The notes under the pieces: generated by a model | Database searches by the model: none | Seen by the model: the letters and a program-made list of their open reading frames with translations, nothing else | What the model was told of the DNA's origin: nothing | From: Rhododendron vialii | Lineage: Eukaryota; Streptophyta; Magnoliopsida; Ericales; Ericaceae | Assembly (NCBI RefSeq): GCF_030253575.1 | Contig: NC_080569.1 | Span: 7,358,001-7,422,000 of the forward strand | Direction of reading: 5' to 3' | DNA length: 64,000 bases | Made by a program: the position numbers and the translations under genes | Part shown: in pieces, positions 5,039-53,047 of the stretch | Layout of the letters: every line of letters begins with the position of its first letter | Position numbering within the stretch: position 1 is the first letter of the stretch

Positions 5039-5158
5039 AAATGATATTGGCACTCTAAAAATTGATGCAAGCATTCCAAAAAATAAAAGAAAGTAGCTTT
5101 GGAGTTACACTGATTTTTGAGTACCTGCATCAATTTTTGGAATACCATTATCATTTCC
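5039..5158. mobile_element. Small diverged MITE related to the copy at 33.8 kb
   Basis: A gaaatgatattggcactct end and an inverted ..attccaaa..atcatttcc end enclose about 120 bp. Most of this aligns by eye with the MULE-type MITE at 33789-33912, including internal agtagctttggagttacact-like sequence. This copy is more decayed, and its flanks are A-rich, so no clean target duplication can be read. Confidence 0.55.
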
Positions 5159-5424
5159 CAAAAAAAAAGAGTGAATTAAAGGATTTTTCTAGGGTTATCT
5201 GTAGAATGAGCACAACTTCCGCGTCTCTGCCTTCTATGGTAACAAAATTAAAATGCCGTGTCGTTTAGAGAAACATAGAAGAAGGTGACTTGCACATACA
5301 ACTTACTCATTTCAATAGAAAATAAATACTAATAGCCAAACCAACCCAGCCAATGTGGTAAATACATTATCCATGGGAGAGGAGTCATATAGAAAAGAAT
5401 AGCCAGTCCAACCCAACCGATGTG

Positions 5425-6077
5425 AATAACTTTGCTTTCAATAGTCGGAAGGTCGTACCAGAAGAGGTCATTGAGCAAGCTAGAAAAGCCAATATGGATT
5501 ACTTGCAAGGGATATGTCAGCAAAGGGAAGAGGGCCTTGCTAGGCCAAGCGTGTTGGAGGGGTGGTCACCACCTCCTCCATCGCCCATCGGTTATAAAAT
5601 TCAATTGTGACGGAGCATTTAAATCCTCCCGCAGCTTAGCTGCCTTTGGCATTATTGCCAGAGACAGTGGTGGATCGGCTCAAGTATGGCGGTGTGGGAG
5701 AACTACGGTTTCATCAGCTCTATCCATTGAAGCTTGGACTTTAAGGATTGCTTGTAAAGTGGCAATTGAAGAAAACTTCCAGAATGTGATTTTTGAAGCT
5801 GATTGCAAGATTCTCATTTCATGCTTGACTGATGATAATTCGCAATGCCCCTGGGAGATTGAAGCTATGGTACAGGATATTAAAGAATGGGCCAAAACGA
5901 GGCAATGGTCTTTTGTGTGGTGCTGTAGGAGACAGAACAGAGTAGCACACTGGATAGCTTCTAACTGTTTTGATAGGAAGTTTTTATTTCAGTCGGGTTG
6001 TATTCCGCCCGGTCTAGATTCCATCTTATGTAAAGACTTGACTTAAGTTCCAATGAAAACATTGACATCTTAAAAAA
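5425..6077 (+). mobile_element. 5'-truncated LINE (L1-type) insertion ending in an A tract
   Basis: The insertion is flanked by the direct repeat aacccaaccgatgtg (5410-5424 and 6078-6092), and a run of A residues immediately precedes the right copy. A long target duplication plus a 3' A-tail is the hallmark of target-primed LINE insertion. Only the last part of ORF2 is present, so the element is strongly 5'-truncated. An older, imperfect copy of the target (5340-5376) lies just upstream. Confidence 0.82.
5432..6046 (+). pseudogene. RNase H-like (RVT_3) domain relic of LINE ORF2
   Basis: The translation contains the plant LINE RNase H fold: FNCDGAF (first catalytic Asp), a downstream EAWTLRIA (Glu) and FEADCKIL (second Asp), closing with NRVAHWIASN, where plant copies often carry His. 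The linker that normally precedes this domain, with a W-x-PPPPSPIGYK motif, is in a different frame (about 5440-5600) and reaches a stop just where the RNase H frame takes over. A one-base indel in the aaaa run at 5596-5599 explains this. There is no reverse transcriptase in the window. It is a dead fragment, not a cellular RNase H gene. Confidence 0.82.
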
Positions 6078-32779: not shown

Positions 32780-33788
32780 TTAATCTCAAAAAAAAAAATT
32801 CCTTTGTTTCTTTTTTACCTCTTTTGTATAATACGATTTGCTCATACATTGCGTGTGTGACGACAGTCTAGTATTTCACATGCGTAAGGCCGCGAGTTTC
32901 GGAATTTCATCAGCCAATTGATTTTTGCACTTTATTTTTGACCATTCGCATTTCAGGATTTAATTTATTAGGGGAATGATTTTCGTATCGTAACTTTACC
33001 ATCCGTACTCTCATACAGTGCACATGGTGAAAACGAGAGTGCGAGTAGTAGAACACGAAAGTGGCACCCCATAATGCGACCGTACAACCCACTTTAGCAC
33101 GCACGTGTATCCAACCAAGCAAATTCCAGACCTTTCCTGCCGTCTCGGGGTTTGTCAATTTAAAGAGAATGTGGTTGTTATTATTCCAAAAAAAACAAAA
33201 GGGATTTTTTAGTACTAGAAAAAAAGTCTTCTTTACAAGAAAAAAAATTAAAAAAAGGGAAAATTACTTTGTTTGTGGAAAGTACTACTCCACTTCTCAA
33301 GGAGCAGCGAATTGGGAACTACTACTTGTTGAGAATCCGAAGCATGGTGTTTTCTCAGGGTCTCAGGTCCTGTTTGGCTCATCTAAATAAATTGGACCTT
33401 TTTATTTTTTTTTATTTTTTATTTTTTATATTACTACAAAACTAAACAAACAAGTTATTTGGTCACCATTTAACTTACCTGCTAGAAAGATTGTCACGCT
33501 TTTCTATTGTCAATGTTTCCTGTCAAATAATATTTTTTATCTAATAAAATTAAATGAATAATTCAATGAACCCTAAATACTGCTTATCCTTCCAAGATTC
33601 ATTCAGATCAAAACAATCACAAGATAGTCGAATGCATTTTATAAAGGTGCAGACTATGGTCAAAACAAATTGTTTTGGCACCAAAAACGTAGCAAGAAAT
33701 ACCGAGGCAATGAAATTCTGTTGTATATATAAATAAATAGATGGGGAAAAAATGTTCGATTGACAATGGAACTAGTACATTTTTTATA
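32780..33788. other. AT-rich intergenic DNA
   Basis: Poly-A and poly-T runs and short random frames only; no gene or bounded element is supported. Confidence 0.4.
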
Positions 33789-33912
33789 GAGAAATGATAT
33801 TGGCACTCCAAAAATTGATGCAAGCACTCCAAAATTAGTGTAACTCCAAAGCCACTTTTTTTTATTTTTTGGAGTGCCTGCACCAATTTTTGGAGTGCCA
33901 ATATCATTTTCC
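33789..33912. mobile_element. 124-bp MULE-type MITE with 9-bp target duplication
   Basis: Termini gagaaatgatattggcactc and its inverse enclose a short A/T-rich middle. The 9-bp direct repeat ttttttata at 33780-33788 and 33913-33921 fixes the borders. It is related to 5039-5158 and, more distantly, to 45900-46054. Confidence 0.85.
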
Positions 33913-34069: not shown

Positions 34070-34650
34070 GACAAAAATCACTTACACCCCCAAGGATTTT
34101 CGCAAGTACAAATTCCCCCTCCAGGTTTGGAAAATGATTTTGAACTCCCTGAGATTTTGCGATGCATTTCAATTACACCAAATTGTTCGAAATCCTTATA
34201 CTGGATTGTGTTGGACCCATCTCAAAGTCTTATACAAATGATCCGAGCCATTTAACTTTTGTATAAAACCTATTTTTAAGGGTCCTTGTAAAAAAAATTG
34301 GCTCAATCGAATATCAATAAAGGCTTGATTGACTCGTCAAATTTTTTGGTCTCTAAATTCACCGAACCCTTAAAAAAATGTGTTAAACACATTAAATGAT
34401 TCCGATCATTTTTGTGGAATTTCGAGGTGGGTCCAACACAATCCAATCCAATGTAAGCATTTTGAATGTGTGGAATTTCGAGGTGGGTCCAACACAATCC
34501 AATCCAATGTAAGCATTTTGAATGATTGGGTGTAATTGAAATGCATCACAAAACCTCAGGAGGGTTCAAAATCATTTTCCAAACCTGGAGGGGGAATCTG
34601 CATTTACGTTAAACCTTGGGGGGTGTCAGTGATATTCACACTAATAAATA
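34070..34650. mobile_element. Inverted-repeat element with an internal tandem duplication
   Basis: The left arm (atcacttacacccccaagg, aattccccctccaggtttgg, gatgcatttcaattacacc) is mirrored on the right (ggtgtaattgaaatgcatc, ccaaacctggagggggaat, ccttggggggtgtcagtgat). In the right arm a block of about 56 bp, tgtggaatttcgaggtgggt to gcattttgaatg, occurs twice in tandem (about 34414-34525). The target duplication is unclear. Confidence 0.75.
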
Positions 34651-38313: not shown

Positions 38314-38737
38314 CGTGGTGTTAGAATTTTCCGATTGCAAAAAATGAGAGTAGTTTTAAGGATCTCAGTTTGGGGCCAAGGCCATCTCTAAGGGCCCAAA
38401 CCCAAAGCACATGATCCCCAGGGCTGCGGTCTTAAACACGTTGCAGTGATAGCCCCCAATGCAACAAGTACCTTTTCTCCAATAAATCCTCCACAGGTGG
38501 CACGATTGTCCTTCATTGCACCACAGATCCAGGAATTAGATACAGATCGAGGGGCACTACTTAAAGTTAGTTTGAAATTTTATTTCACTATCGAACGCTA
38601 AGAGATAATATCTAACTCAAATATTCACCACTAAGCATATAAATTTGTACTATTACTTATATCAACAAGCCTAAAAAAAAATAAAAATAGGTTACCTTAG
38701 ATACTAATGGCCCTTTGATTTCGAAACTATCTATTCT

Positions 38738-40036
38738 TAGGGCCCGTTTGGATGAGGAAAAAAAATTAGAGGTATTAGTTAATAAGGGAGGATAAGATAG
38801 TAGGGGGTATTAGTTAATAAAGGATAGCCCACATTGATGTGATGTTTATGGAGGGGGGATTAAATAGTATGTTGTTTGAATGAGGTATTAAAGAAGGGGG
38901 ATTAAATAATACTTGGTTTGAATGGAGGACTAATAAGGGGCATAAAGAAAGGTGGATGATATAAAAAGCTGTCAAATGATCCTTTTGTCCTTGTGCAGTC
39001 CCTAAATTAATTATGGATTACGTTTTATATGTAATTGCAAATTTAATTATTCTTTCCCATTTGCAAATATAAACTGACTAAAGAGAAAAAAAATTAAGTG
39101 TTCCAAATTTCAATTCATTTGAACTGGTGGAAAGATTTTAATTTTCTGATCATTTTATCCTAAATGGTCATAATTAAATTTTGACTCTAGGCCTCTCGTT
39201 GATTAGCTTTAAGAAAGTCATAGAATCAAATATCTCTTAGGGCTAATCAACAAGAGCCATATAATCAAAATTAAATTATGACCATTTAGGATAAAATGAT
39301 CAGAAAACTAAAATCTTTCCACCAGTTCAAACGGATTGAAATTTGGAATACTTAATTTTTCAATCTCTTTAGACAGTTTATATATTAAAAAATATGGTTA
39401 AAAAATTAAGTGTTTCAAATTTCAATCCGTTTGAACCAGTGGAAAGATTTAGTTTTTTGATCATTTTATCCTAAATGGTCATAATTAAATTTTGACTCTA
39501 GAGCTTTCGTTAATTAACCCTAAGAAAGTCATAGAATCAAATATCTCTTAGGGCTAATCAACAAGAGCTGAAGAGTCAAAATAAAAATATGACCATTTAG
39601 AATAAAATGATCAAAAATTAAAAATCTTTCCACCGGTTCAAACAGATTGAAATTTAGAACACTTAATTTTTCAACATTTTTAGACAGTTTATATACTAAA
39701 TAAAGAGTCTTAGGATAAGTTTGAATGAAAAATATGATTTTAGGTAAAATGAAGAGTAGAAGTTGGTTGAATGGTGGATGGGGAAATGGGATAACAAGGG
39801 GTATTTTCATCCACAAATCACCCCTCCAAATCCGGATTATTTTTTGGCACCTCAAGAGGAGCCCAAATTTAATACCGGACAATCCCTAAACCTGGCCAAA
39901 ATGACGAGGGGGTCAAAGATAAGAGGGGAACCAATTTCGAATGCCAAAAGGGAGGAAAGGGCTGGGCCCTTCTCCATTTACCCCCTCTTATTCCCCCCCC
40001 CCCCCCCCCCGTTTCACTCCATCCAAACAAGGCCTT
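38738..40036. mobile_element. hAT-like element carrying two palindromic units
   Basis: The ends agggcccgtttggatg and catccaaacaaggcct are inverted and of a type common in plant hAT-derived elements. About 1.3 kb lies between, without coding potential, including the two-unit palindrome at 39090-39690 and a C run at 39993-40010. No target duplication was identified. Confidence 0.55.
39090..39690. repeat. Two tandem palindromic units of about 280 bp
   Basis: Each unit reads ttaagtgtt.caaatttcaat to a central aagaaagtcatagaatcaaa loop and back through the inverted sequence. The units begin near 39094 and 39404 and are joined by tttatatattaaa linkers. They share sequence with the three-unit palindrome at 46830-47710. 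Confidence 0.8.
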
Positions 40037-40387
40037 AGGATTGAAACTCGGGTAGCTATATCTAAGACGTGAGCCTCTATCTATAATAGCCGCAAAATAA
40101 AAAAAGGAAGGGTCTGTTCGTCCTGCCTTAAGCCTAAACATAGTGATTTTAATTACCTATTGATAGTTGGCAGCCACCCAGTACAATAAGGGGGAAAACG
40201 TCCGACTAGTTAGATTTTAGGGATGTAGTAGAGTTGTAGAGATAACCAGAAGAGTTGTAGAGATAACCAAAAGTCCAGGGGGTCATGACACATGTCCACC
40301 CTAGATTGCACCACCCACATTGATTTTCATACTAGATCTGCCGTGCAGACCACGTTTGTATTCGTAGTATTCTCACACGTTAATGTT

Positions 40388-42211: not shown

Positions 42212-42599
42212 ACAGAAAGTCTACCCTTACCGACCCAAATTCACAATCGGAATCCCGACGTCCCTCCGGGCACATTCCAGCCACTGGAACGCCGATCCGA
42301 GCTATTCAAAAATTCTATAAAAAAAAACCGAGTGGGTTTTGAGCGGGAATAAACGGCATCCGACGTGTGTAGATAGCCGATCCAAACAATCCATTTTTGT
42401 GTTTGGATCGGCCAAAAATGGAGTGCTTGGATCGGCTACCTACACACTTTTGATGTTGTTTATTCTCGCGTAAGCCCACTCGTTTTTTTTTTTAGAATTT
42501 TTGGACGGCTCGGATCAGCCGTCCGGTGGCCAGAGTGTGCCCGGCGGGGCGTCGGAATTCCGATTGGGATTACTCCCATCGGGAACTGTAGCTTCACTG
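42212..42599. mobile_element. Foldback MULE-type MITE, relative of the 101-515 element
   Basis: Inverted arms of about 190 bp share with 101-515 the words gacggctcggatc, ccgtccggtggcc, a long A run and a gcgggaat.aac..catccgacgtgtgtag block. caaaaaaaa flanks both sides (42203-42211 and 42600-42608) as a probable 9-bp target duplication, although its low complexity weakens that point. Confidence 0.75.
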
Positions 42600-46470: not shown

Positions 46471-46684
46471 TAATTAAATATTCCCTTACGAAGTTGAGTT
46501 TTTTGGTGGGGAACAACCACTGCGAGAAAGAAACATTAATGAGTAGTGCGCATTAAATATGTTATGCAGTACTAGTAGTAATTAATGTAAAAGATTTCGT
46601 ACGATTTTTTCCTAATCTGAAGAGATTTCCGTCATTAAATGCTGAATCCTGTCACCCACATAGAGCCAACCTTCCCTGCAGCAG

Positions 46685-47855
46685 GAGAAATTATTCGGTG
46701 CCCCAAAGGCAACGCCAGGTGTTGCCTCCCACCTGTTTTTTTTTTATTTTATCCGCAGGTGCCTCCACCTTAAATATCTATTGACACGCGTTTTCTTCTC
46801 CCCTGTCCCACTAGACACAACCTTTTCTCTAAAATTAAGTGTTTCAAATTTCAATACTTTTGAATGGGTGAGAAGATTTTATTTTTTTATCATTTAATTC
46901 TAAAAGGTCATAATTAAATTTTGACTATAAGGCTCTCGTTGATTAACTCTAAGAAAGTCGTAGAATCAAATATCTCTTAGGACTAACCAACGAGAGCCTT
47001 AGAGTCAAAATTTAATTATGACCCTTTAGAATTAAATGATCAGATAAATAAAATCTTCTTACCCATTCAAACGGATTGAAATTTGGAACACTTAATTTTT
47101 CAATCTTCAGTTTATATATTAAAAAATATAATTAAAAAATTAAGTGCTTCAAATTTCAATCCGTTTGAATGGGTGAGAAGATTTTATTTATCTGATCATT
47201 TAATTCTAAAGGGTCATAATTAAATTTTGACTATAGGGCTCTCGTTGATTAACCCTAAGATAGTCGTAGAATCAAATATCTCTTAGGACTAACCAACGAG
47301 AGCCCTAGAGTCAAAATTTAATTATGACCCTTTAGAATTAAATGATCAGATAAATAAAATCTTCTCACCCATTCAAACGGATTGAAATTTGAAGCACTTA
47401 ATTTTTTAACCATATTTTTTAATATATAAACTAAAGATTGAAAAATTAAGTGTTCCAAATTTCAATCATTTTGAATGGGTGAGAAAATTTTATTTATCTG
47501 ATCATTTAATTCTAAAGGGTCATAATTAAATTTTGACTCTAAGGCTCTCGTTGGTTAATCCTAAGAGATATTTGATTCTACGACTTTCTTAGGGTTAATC
47601 AACGAGAGCCTTATAGTCAAAATTTAATTATGACCTTTTAGAATTAAATGATAAAAAAATAAAATCTTCTCACCCATTCAAAAGTATTGAAATTTGAAAC
47701 ACTTAATTTTAGAGAAAATGTTGTGTCTAGTGGGACAGGGGAGAAGAAAACGCGTGTCAATAGATATTTAAGGTGGAGGCACCTGCGGATAAAAAAAAAA
47801 AAAACAGGTGGGAGGCAACACCTGGCGTTGCCTTTGGGGCACCGAATAATTTCTC
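46685..47855. mobile_element. 1171-bp nested-palindrome MULE-type element
   Basis: The element begins gagaaattattcggtgcccc and ends with its exact inverse, and is flanked by the 9-bp direct repeat ctgcagcag (46676-46684 and 47856-47864). The arms continue as inverted repeats for almost 600 bp to a centre near 47270. Inside are three units of about 280 bp (near 46835-47100, 47140-47400 and 47440-47705), each itself palindromic around an aagaaagtcgtagaatcaaa loop. The third unit carries its loop in the opposite orientation, as required for a mirror image of the first. It has no coding potential. Confidence 0.88.
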
Positions 47856-47994
47856 CTGCAGCAGTGCACCTGCTGCTGCAGCTTTGTGCATGTGATAGTA
47901 AATTCTTTCTAAGTACGAAAAAATGATACTAGTAATAAATTCTTCCTCTCCTCCAAAGCATTTAGATCCAATCAATCAAATGGGTTAAGAATCA

Positions 47995-49707: not shown

Positions 49708-52700
49708 ATGGGGGAATCCGAAGGAGTTGCTGCGAAAGAGACCGCCTCTACCAATTCTCAGATGGGTAAAGGTCTGCGTTTCTTTTCTCCAGAAACCCAG
49801 CATTTGCCTTCTTTTTTCTTGAAATTGCATTGGAAATGATTTTGTGTATTTCATATCTTGATATTATTTTCTTACCCAAATGGAAAAGATTTATTTTTTA
49901 AAGAAATGATTTTTCCAACTTCCAAGGGAAGGAAAATCTTTTATGAATGAAGCAATGCAGAACTATGTTACACGAACTTTCTTCATTGGGATTGGATGGG
50001 TATAAAATGGTAGGGAGGGTGATGGTGAAGTTTGTTTCTGCAGAATTTCTCTCCCCCCCCCCCCCCCCCCACCCCCCCAAGGAACCCTTTTCGCAAAACA
50101 AAAAGATAAAACAAAAAAATGCCCCAAACCGTATCAATTTGTGATGTTGATATGACAAGGGCAAAGCAAAACCAGACAAATCTTGACAGGTTTTGCCTGT
50201 CCCTACATTCGTTTTCTCAAATTGTTTGCAACATAAAGATGGTAGATTTAACTAATTTCAAAGAAATCGTTCAATCTCAAATTTCGTTTTCATATAATGC
50301 TCATCTGATATCTCTCTCTGTTTCCATTATCCATGGAGTAGGTTGAATTTTTTATGCGGTGCTAACGGCTTAATAACTATCTCTGTAGCTTCTCCGAATG
50401 GCGCATCTCCTAACGGGGTTAACCGCATGAAGAAATTCGACAACGAAGGGGAATTTGACCTGAGTGCTCCTCCTCCGTTTAAGATAGCCGAGATTCGAGC
50501 TGCCATTCCCAAGCACTGTTGGGTGAAGGACCCATGGAAGTCTCTGAGTTATGTGTTCAGGGATGTCCTTGTGGTTATTGGGTTTGCAGCTATTGCAATT
50601 TACTTCAACAATTGGGCTGTTTGGCCACTTTACTGGGCTGCCCAGGGAACCATGTTTTGGGCACTATTTGTGCTTGGTCATGATTGGTAACATCATGCTC
50701 ACCCTACTTTTATGGTTCTACTTTCCTCTTTGCAACTCAATTTATTAAATCTGGTTTTTGTTTTCCGGCTTGAAGGATGTGTGGTTCAATTTGAAGTTCA
50801 GATTTATTGAATCTTTTACCGGTAAAATTCTTTTTTAACATGCGTAAAAGATTGAAAACAAATTTGGACTATTAAAAATGCTAACCGATGCTTGCGATCA
50901 CTTGAACCGCATATGGGCAGTCCAAACCTGGATTGGATTTGGACCGCTGACAAACCAAGCCAGATTCTTCGAGAAAGTTTTGCAGGAAACTTGCTACAGT
51001 GGAAACTTGTTTGATAGACAGTTTTCGAAACTTGGGCTTTTAAGAATATTATACTCCTTTAGAATAAATTTTTGTTTCGTGCGGAAAAGAACCCATTTAG
51101 AAATTTTTTAATATGTTATAACTGGATGTCGAGCTAACTTACGCACACCTTAACTAATACCGTTAGAAAACGACTATCATTTTTAGTTTAGGATATAAAT
51201 TTTTGAAAAGTGTTCTGCAAAACTGATTTGACTAACAACAACATAACAAGGTGATGTTTTCTAAGTTAGCATGAAATTTTGTGTTGGGTTCCGGATTTTT
51301 ACAGCGGCCACGGAAGCTTTTCAGACAGTCCCTTGCTGAACAGTGTTGTTGGGCATCTCCTGCATTCTTCAATTCTTGTACCTTATCATGGCTGGTGTGT
51401 TCTTGATTACCTTCTTACTTTAATGCTTCTATTTGGCTCATGATATTTTTATGTCTTGCTTGATTTTGTGAAAGATGACTGCTTATCTGACTGAGACATA
51501 TTACAGGAGAATTAGCCACAGAACCCACCATCAGAACCATGGAAATGTTGAACATGATGAATCATGGGTACCGGTAATACTACGATTTCACCTACGCTTA
51601 GCCTTCCGTTAACCCACTCCTATTTGTTACAGTTCTAACTATTTGTTTCGGTTCCAGTTGAGCGAGGGTACATACAAGTCTTTGGATATTTCCACCAAAT
51701 TTTTCCGGTTTAAAGTGCCATTCCCCTTGTTTGCATACCCCATATATTTGGTAAGAATCCGCCTAAAAAAATTCGTTTACAACACTAATCTTCTGAGAAC
51801 TCAACTACTATTGGGTTGGATTACAGTGGACTAGGAGTCCGGGGAAGAAGGGTTCTCATTTCAATCCTTATAGTGATCTGTTCCATCCCGACGAGAGGAA
51901 GTACGTGATCACTTCAACCATTTGTTGGACTCTAATGGTTGGCCTGCTTTACTACCTATCCAAGCTAATAGGGCCTGTCGAAATGCTCAAGATCTACGGT
52001 GTTCCGTACATGGTAAGTGTACCATTGTTTTCTCAACAAGAGTTCCTAGAATTCCAGCTGATAGGAATGAATTTATTTGATTCAAAACTATACTTGGACT
52101 TAATATACTTCTCTGGATCGGTCGGGCTTGTAACTCTGCAGGTTTTTGTTATGTGGTTGGATTTTGTTACTTACTTGCATCACCATGGCCATGAGCAGAA
52201 GCTTCCTTGGTACCGTGGCAAGGTACTATAACAATCTTTTCTAATTCCTGTTCTTAGGTTTGTGGTGAATTATGTGCAAATGTGCTTGGTATCACTTATA
52301 ATCCCAACAAATACAAGGAAAATAACACTCATACGAAGGTGGAGAGATTCGAACTCTCCTGGCCAACTGAACTAGCCGGAAACTAGCCGGAATTGATTAT
52401 TTCTAGGCTAAATTATGTATGGAAGGTTTCCTTAAACCATTTCATCAATCATGTGAGATTTTTATGCAACTCTACGATAAACTTGAACACTAATAAACAT
52501 TCTTCTTCCGTAAATGTGGAAAATTTCCAGACATGGGTTGGTCGAATATGTACGTTTCTAAGAGTTGGTTTAGTGTAGTTTGCTGAGTCAAATTGAGTAT
52601 GTCATAACCCTTTGTTTTCACTGAACAGGAATGGAACTACTTAAGGGGAGGGCTTACGACTGTCGACCGTGATTACGGAATGTTCAACAGTATCCAGCAT

Positions 52701-53047
52701 GACATAGGAACTCATGTCGTTCACCATCTGTTCCCTCAGATTCCCCATTATCACCTAATAGAAGCGGTAAGATATGCTTTAATTTCCCCAGAAAAGTCTG
52801 ATTACTCGTTCCTATTCAAAATGCCTAAGGTTTTGATGCTATCGTGATGCAGACGAAGGCAGCTAAGCCGGTGCTTGGAAAATACTACCGGGAGCCAAGA
52901 AAATCACCGGGGCCTATTCCGTTTCACTTGTTCAGTTATCTGGTCAGAAGCATCCAAGAGGACCACTATGTGAGTGATACCGGGGACGTTTTGTACTATC
53001 AGAGTGATCCTCAGTTATACGGTTTGTATCAGAGCAAAAGGGGGTGA
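49708..53047 (+). CDS. FAD3: Endoplasmic-reticulum omega-3 fatty acid desaturase, nine coding exons
   Basis: Membrane desaturase that converts linoleoyl to alpha-linolenoyl groups on ER phosphatidylcholine. Coding exons: 49708-49765, 50389-50686, 51305-51394, 51507-51573, 51658-51750, 51827-52012, 52142-52222, 52629-52766 and 52853-53047. All have GT-AG borders with phase kept, for 401 residues. Three histidine boxes bind the di-iron centre: HDCGHG (117-122), HRTHH (153-157) and HVVHH (320-324). The family signature [18 protein letters not shown] begins the conserved part. There is no chloroplast transit peptide before it, only a short polar N-terminus, which separates FAD3 from plastid FAD7/8. 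The first exon is just 58 bp, split from the conserved body by a 623-bp intron. The 406-bp seventh intron holds a tRNA-like fragment. Everything needed for activity is present. Confidence 0.94.
52328..52400 (-). repeat. Possible tRNA/SINE fragment in a FAD3 intron
   Basis: On the minus strand tagttcagttgg is followed closely by agttcgaatctctcc, resembling RNA polymerase III A and B boxes, but the spacing is much shorter than in a tRNA and no acceptor stem forms. A duplicated aactagccgga lies at the edge. Treated as a worn SINE-type fragment only. Confidence 0.3.

Follow-up and report, generated by a model that had tools for sequence, protein, structure and literature searches.

We analyzed a 64,000-nucleotide stretch of Rhododendron vialii DNA (contig NC_080569.1, positions 7,358,001 to 7,422,000), referred to here as the window. 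It contains a long inverted repeat, element A, which lies upstream of an omega-3 desaturase-like gene, as well as a second array of the same hairpin units, array B, which is enclosed in a candidate transposon of apparently different type. The features and their coordinates in the window are as follows:

38737..40037, unstranded: candidate PIF/Harbinger-like element enclosing array B, reading TTA, GGGCCCGTTTGGATG ... CATCCAAACAAGGCC, TTA
39067..39694, plus strand: array B, two direct units (39089-39360 and 39401-39671) with short inverted ends
46676..46684, plus strand: target-site duplication (TSD), left copy, the 9-bp CTGCAGCAG, a perfect match to 47856-47864
46685..47855, unstranded: element A, putative foldback element of MULE type, a 1,171-bp inverted repeat
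46685..46830, plus strand: outer zone of the left terminal inverted repeat (TIR), 146 bp, starting with GAGAAATTATTCGGTGCC, two differences from the right copy
46831..47100, plus strand: unit 1, a hairpin with its loop at 46958-46980
47136..47405, plus strand: unit 2, a hairpin that straddles the centre of element A, with its loop at 47264-47286
47233..47308, unstranded: inner stem and loop of unit 2, the proposed older hinge (differences 4/28 inner, 0/98 outer)
47442..47710, minus strand: unit 3, the mirror copy of unit 1, with its loop, reversed, at 47561-47583
47711..47855, minus strand: outer TIR zone, right, 145 bp, delimited by arm alignment and nhmmer
47856..47864, plus strand: target-site duplication, right copy, 9-bp CTGCAGCAG, perfect and abutting the end of element A
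49708..53047, plus strand: omega-3 desaturase-like (FAD3-like) gene, candidate start 49708, next exon from 50389

Pfam analysis of the desaturase open reading frames (ORFs) detected DUF3474 (E 6e-29) and FA_desaturase (E 5e-6, which is under the cut-off of that model and falls in a partial exon), a combination that we take to be the pattern expected of an omega-3 desaturase, and no Pfam match was obtained in two further ORFs read as exons of the same gene. The candidate start at 49708, spliced to the exon at 50389, would read in frame, and the far end at 53047 was estimated from the ORFs. In this predicted gene model, element A sits 1,853 bp upstream of the candidate ATG (1,853-3,023 bp over its length), in agreement with the original prediction, which had placed it 1.9-3 kb from a FAD3 start. 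Element A is at most a candidate regulator of the desaturase gene.

Alignment of the two arms of element A, of 576 and 575 bp, showed identity in 561 of 576 columns (97.4%), the 15 differences being ten transitions, four transversions and one indel. The motif GAGAAATTATTCGGTGCC begins at 46685 and its reverse complement finishes at 47855, at the two ends of the element. When this 18-base terminus was searched in the window with up to three mismatches allowed, just two matches were found, both of them at the ends of element A, with 0.06 expected. Exactly at these ends lie the two copies of CTGCAGCAG, a match whose chance at the single boundary of element A was estimated at about 1.3e-5 from the local base composition, and the flanks outside the two arms are unrelated to each other. 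Folded as RNA, element A forms a single long hairpin with few small internal mismatches (-926.5 kcal/mol), while five mononucleotide shuffles of it folded at -220 to -242 kcal/mol. No ORF of at least 100 amino acids overlaps the element, the longest overlapping one having 94 amino acids. With substitution rates of 1.5e-8 to 2.5e-9, the 10 substitutions counted over 547 columns (leaving aside one indel column and the 28 inner columns of unit 2) correspond to an age of about 0.6-3.7 million years for the arms, a figure valid to an order of magnitude at best.

Inside the arms, element A carries three hairpin units of about 270 bp at a repeat spacing of about 306 bp, each composed of two halves of about 126 bp and a loop of about 20 bases. 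The loop sequence is found on the plus strand at 46958 and 47264 and is reversed at 47561; units 1 and 2 are therefore placed head-to-tail, and unit 3, reversed as a whole with its loop included, mirrors unit 1. The large palindrome is centred within the loop of unit 2. The original prediction had described a full-length inverted repeat with arms of almost 600 bp that contained three palindromic units, the third mirroring the first and the second lying across the centre, and that had moved as a unit; the coordinates proved exact, the loop orientations agree with that order of units, and the position of the termini exactly at a perfect 9-bp duplication bears out the movement of the whole.

Two smaller symmetries were noticed at this place. 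The insertion site at 47856-47881 is a short GC-rich inverted repeat made of CTGCAGCAG, five bases and then CTGCTGCTGCAG, and the empty site could form a small hairpin. In the outer zone of element A, at 46708-46735, small overlapping inverted repeats (GGCAAC...GTTGCC and CAGGTG...CACCTG) were seen by eye.

MULEs are characterized by TSDs of 8-11 bp and long TIRs (PMC6446971; this and the other articles cited here are taken from their available text). Element A has both, namely the perfect 9-bp TSD located exactly at its ends and its long, nearly identical arms. The length of these arms (576 bp) exceeds the range of 14-500 bp that the text of the same article gives for its own set of TIRs, and lies within the maximum of its table, which has groups of up to 613 and 640 bp (PMC6446971, available part). 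As in foldback elements, each long inverted arm combines an outer domain with internal repeats, and the whole can fold into a single hairpin. Taken apart from the mechanism of its birth, element A is very probably a non-autonomous MULE-type foldback transposon, its membership of the MULEs being suggested by structure. No transposase was found among 10 ORFs scanned against Pfam. The 18-base terminus had no match in viral contigs and eight in bacterial and archaeal genomes, where about 7.5 are expected by chance in 257 billion bases read on two strands, and a search of the literature for the terminus and its truncated versions turned up a single article, which contained one 12-base version and whose title and abstract indicate an unrelated topic. 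The earlier assignment to MULEs stood as regards structure (TSD and long TIRs), whereas no named family could be attached to it, the ends of element A recurring nowhere else in the 64-kb window. We regard element A as an atypical representative of a known class and not as a new kind of element.

Among plant transposons, FARE, Hairpin, SoFT and Tnr8 are foldback elements with long inverted arms, a likeness to element A that is one of description only. The closest architecture found in the open-access literature searched is that of Tetris from Drosophila virilis, whose long TIRs combine an outer flanking domain with tandem repeats, in that case AT-rich and of about 220 bp (PMC4079207, available text). 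Tetris elements have TSDs of 8-10 bp and are apparently non-autonomous, and their repeats are also present in contigs that lack the outer domain (PMC4079207), a situation comparable to that of element A and array B. They differ from element A in being animal elements, and the available part of that article describes neither palindromic monomers nor a central unit common to the two arms (PMC4079207); the array outside element A, for its part, is located in a candidate PIF element. Tm1, a Mutator/Foldback family of root-knot nematodes, resembles element A in its composite TIRs with internal repeats and in its non-autonomous copies, has TSDs of 8-10 bp, most often of 9 bp, in 45 of 53 elements, and ties foldback arms to Mutator (PMC3169594, available text). 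In contrast to element A, the internal repeats of Tm1 are of about 14 bp and the family has a transposase-encoding member, of which none was seen here (PMC3169594). Mu killer of maize is, according to the accessible text, an inverted MULE derivative with the same end twice, as element A appears to be, but it has mudrA sequence and silences MuDR, whereas element A is without a long ORF (PMC3440606). Compared with these systems, as far as the open-access literature goes, element A is distinct in that its repeats are palindromes themselves and that its middle unit serves both arms.

The units of element A recur about 7 kb upstream of it, at approximately 39088-39671, as two head-to-tail copies separated by a homologous spacer (array B), the half-units of both arrays being 80-87% identical. 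The ends of element A are absent from array B, and the best other match of the outer zone in the window by nhmmer lies elsewhere (E 0.16). Further divergent copies of the unit were not detected in the window outside the two arrays (best E 0.24), nor did the 21-base unit loop match any viral contig. Inspection by eye around 39067-39694 found no convincing target duplications for array B as a separate transposon. The element that encloses it has TTA flanking each side and TIRs that match in 12 of 15 bases, a score attained by three of the 93,751 TTA pairs in the window, the other two resembling AT-rich chance matches; for this reason we call it only a candidate PIF/Harbinger element. Its left motif GGGCCCGTTTGGATG includes the melon PIF TIR, given as GGGCCCGTTTG in the available text of PMC11161486, and its right end CATCCAAACAAGGCC departs from it. 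One hairpin repeat is thus present in two different candidate transposons 7 kb apart. The original prediction had missed array B, which is without MULE ends and inside an apparently different transposon.

It had also missed that the inner stem of unit 2 is not homogenised, an observation that bears on the origin of the palindrome. When the two halves of unit 2 were compared, none of the 98 outer columns and four of the 28 inner columns differed (Fisher p 0.002, with the cut between outer and inner columns chosen after the data were seen). In the same outer 98 columns, the halves of units A1, A3, B1 and B2 differed at 10, 10, 6 and 12 positions, and the outer identity of unit 2 gave Fisher p values of 0.0015, 0.0015, 0.029 and 0.0003 against them, respectively, A1 and A3 being mirror copies and so not independent controls. 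Three of the inner differences of unit 2 (columns 99, 114 and 119) distinguish the left from the right half in all three units of element A, and the fourth (column 118) does so in units 1 and 2 only. Because the other units of element A have the same left/right states, these differences look older than the large palindrome. The states of columns 114 and 119 are absent from array B, which suggests that they arose in the lineage of element A and are not common to all units. A breakpoint scan of all 576 arm columns placed a change at 47233 with a permutation p of 0.017, or of 0.063 when adjacent changes were merged.

An inner excess was also found in B1, a control unit that is not central to a large palindrome like element A (6/28 inner versus 6/98 outer columns, p 0.025), so some inner excess is possible without such a palindrome; B2, A1 and A3 had none (p 0.23, 0.32 and 1.0). 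The inner stem may simply be a more variable part of the unit. What is peculiar to unit 2 is the full identity of its outer stem. The signal is a modest one that depends on few sites (the 15 differences between the arms), and it is consistent with foldback copying.

To our knowledge, the origin of the long symmetric arms of foldback transposons is not settled. For element A, the reading that we consider somewhat better than evenly probable is that of a non-autonomous MULE-type foldback transposon which was born by foldback copying at unit 2 and then transposed. The cargo would have been a tandem array of hairpin-forming repeats of about 306 bp, of the kind that exists outside element A as well. 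A 3′ DNA end, for example one left by the interrupted repair of an excision gap, would have folded back and paired within the inner stem of unit 2, from which point the left arm would have been copied outward, through half of unit 2 and unit 1 to the outer end. Such copying would leave the inner stem of unit 2 as it was before and turn all that lies beyond it into a mirror copy. The left arm probably retains the older order, because the head-to-tail arrangement of units 1 and 2, with its spacer, resembles that of array B, whereas unit 3 is reversed. Having the same end on both sides, the product would then be recognized by a trans-acting MULE transposase and would insert at the present site with duplication of 9 bp; we infer the action of a MULE transposase from the length of the duplication and the long ends. 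Inverted duplications of yeast, whose centre still holds the short inverted repeat present in the parent sequence, have been accounted for by foldback annealing with subsequent fill-in synthesis (PMC10622511, available text). They resemble element A in that a large inverted duplication surrounds a short older inverted repeat, and differ from it in being chromosome rearrangements, common in repair-deficient cells, and not transposons (PMC10622511). By analogy, the same mechanism might extend to plants. Since the centre of the palindrome seems to retain older left/right differences, foldback priming at an older hairpin can be tested by comparing copies from the same genome.

The main rival to foldback copying is gene conversion between older arms, which could leave a similar pattern. 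Element A would then be an ordinary two-ended MULE with an internal array of hairpin units, whose arms became symmetric later by recombining with, or converting, each other, with no foldback birth. Long inverted ends are ordinary for MULEs (PMC6446971, available text), arms homogenised to 97.4% identity are also predicted by conversion, and an inner excess such as that of B1 needs by itself no foldback event. Nevertheless, a head-to-tail array would require a full-length inverted replacement in order to yield a unit 3 that is wholly reversed, loop included, and there is no obvious reason for conversion to end at the inner stem of unit 2. We regard later symmetrisation as a rather unlikely alternative.

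A further reading, which concerns the effect of element A and not its origin and is compatible with foldback birth, is that the element is a small-RNA source locus whose targets are neighbouring sequences or related MULEs, in the manner proposed for maize Mu killer. A transcript across the whole element would form one hairpin of -926.5 kcal/mol, and in Mu killer, an inverted derivative of MuDR, both TIRs stem from the same end (PMC3440606, available text). However, with no overlapping ORF beyond 94 amino acids there is no transposase gene to target, element A lies at least 1.85 kb from the candidate desaturase start, and the Mu killer article itself proposes, in its available part, a source of antisense RNA other than the original hairpin model (PMC3440606). 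Such a function can be put forward tentatively, as an idea that the evidence leaves somewhat improbable. The original prediction had proposed long double-stranded RNA and small RNAs near the FAD3 start and a cruciform that could destabilise the locus, all of them hypothetical consequences of the palindrome.

Three independent insertions of hairpin MITEs into one MULE would account for the MITE-like aspect of each unit, a hairpin of about 270 bp, yet they are highly improbable in view of the homologous spacer of about 30-40 bp and the period of 305-312 bp found in both arrays, which argue for tandem duplication rather than for separate insertions. An artefact of assembly or long-read sequencing is hardly credible: reads folded on themselves and inverted are a recognized artefact class, but they would yield near-exact arms and mirrored flanks, whereas the arms of element A differ in 15 of 576 columns, mostly by transitions, its flanks are unrelated and bear a 9-bp direct repeat exactly at its ends, its units recur independently at 39.1-39.7 kb, and the differences between units 1 and 3, polarised by array B and unit 2, represent changes in both arms (left arm, column 41 and probably 120; right arm, columns 28, 29 and 46; column 118 ambiguous).

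A broader proposal builds on foldback copying at unit 2, and we hold it to be distinctly unlikely as it stands. Element A would be a transposon that bears the footprint of its own birth, its hairpin repeats having served as hinges for copying one transposon end to the other side. Through arrays of this kind, DNA lying beside just one MULE end could become a mobile foldback element, and the same arrays would travel in at least two unrelated types of transposon.

Other repeats were observed in the window. An imperfect inverted repeat at 34077-34633, with arms of 153 and 161 bp that are 83% identical, is of MITE type in appearance and overlaps a perfect 56-bp tandem duplication at 34413-34524. 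The segments 185-451 and 42276-42535 match in inverted orientation (78% over 268 bp), each being a hairpin with GC-rich ends, and the former is by eye a nearly perfect palindrome. Two copies of a short MITE-like sequence with ends like GAAATGATATTGGCACTC lie on opposite strands at 5039-5168 and 33780-33909 (88% over 130 bp). Finally, an ORF at 5432-6046 has an RNase H-type domain (RVT_3, E 1e-19) and is perhaps a retrotransposon remnant.
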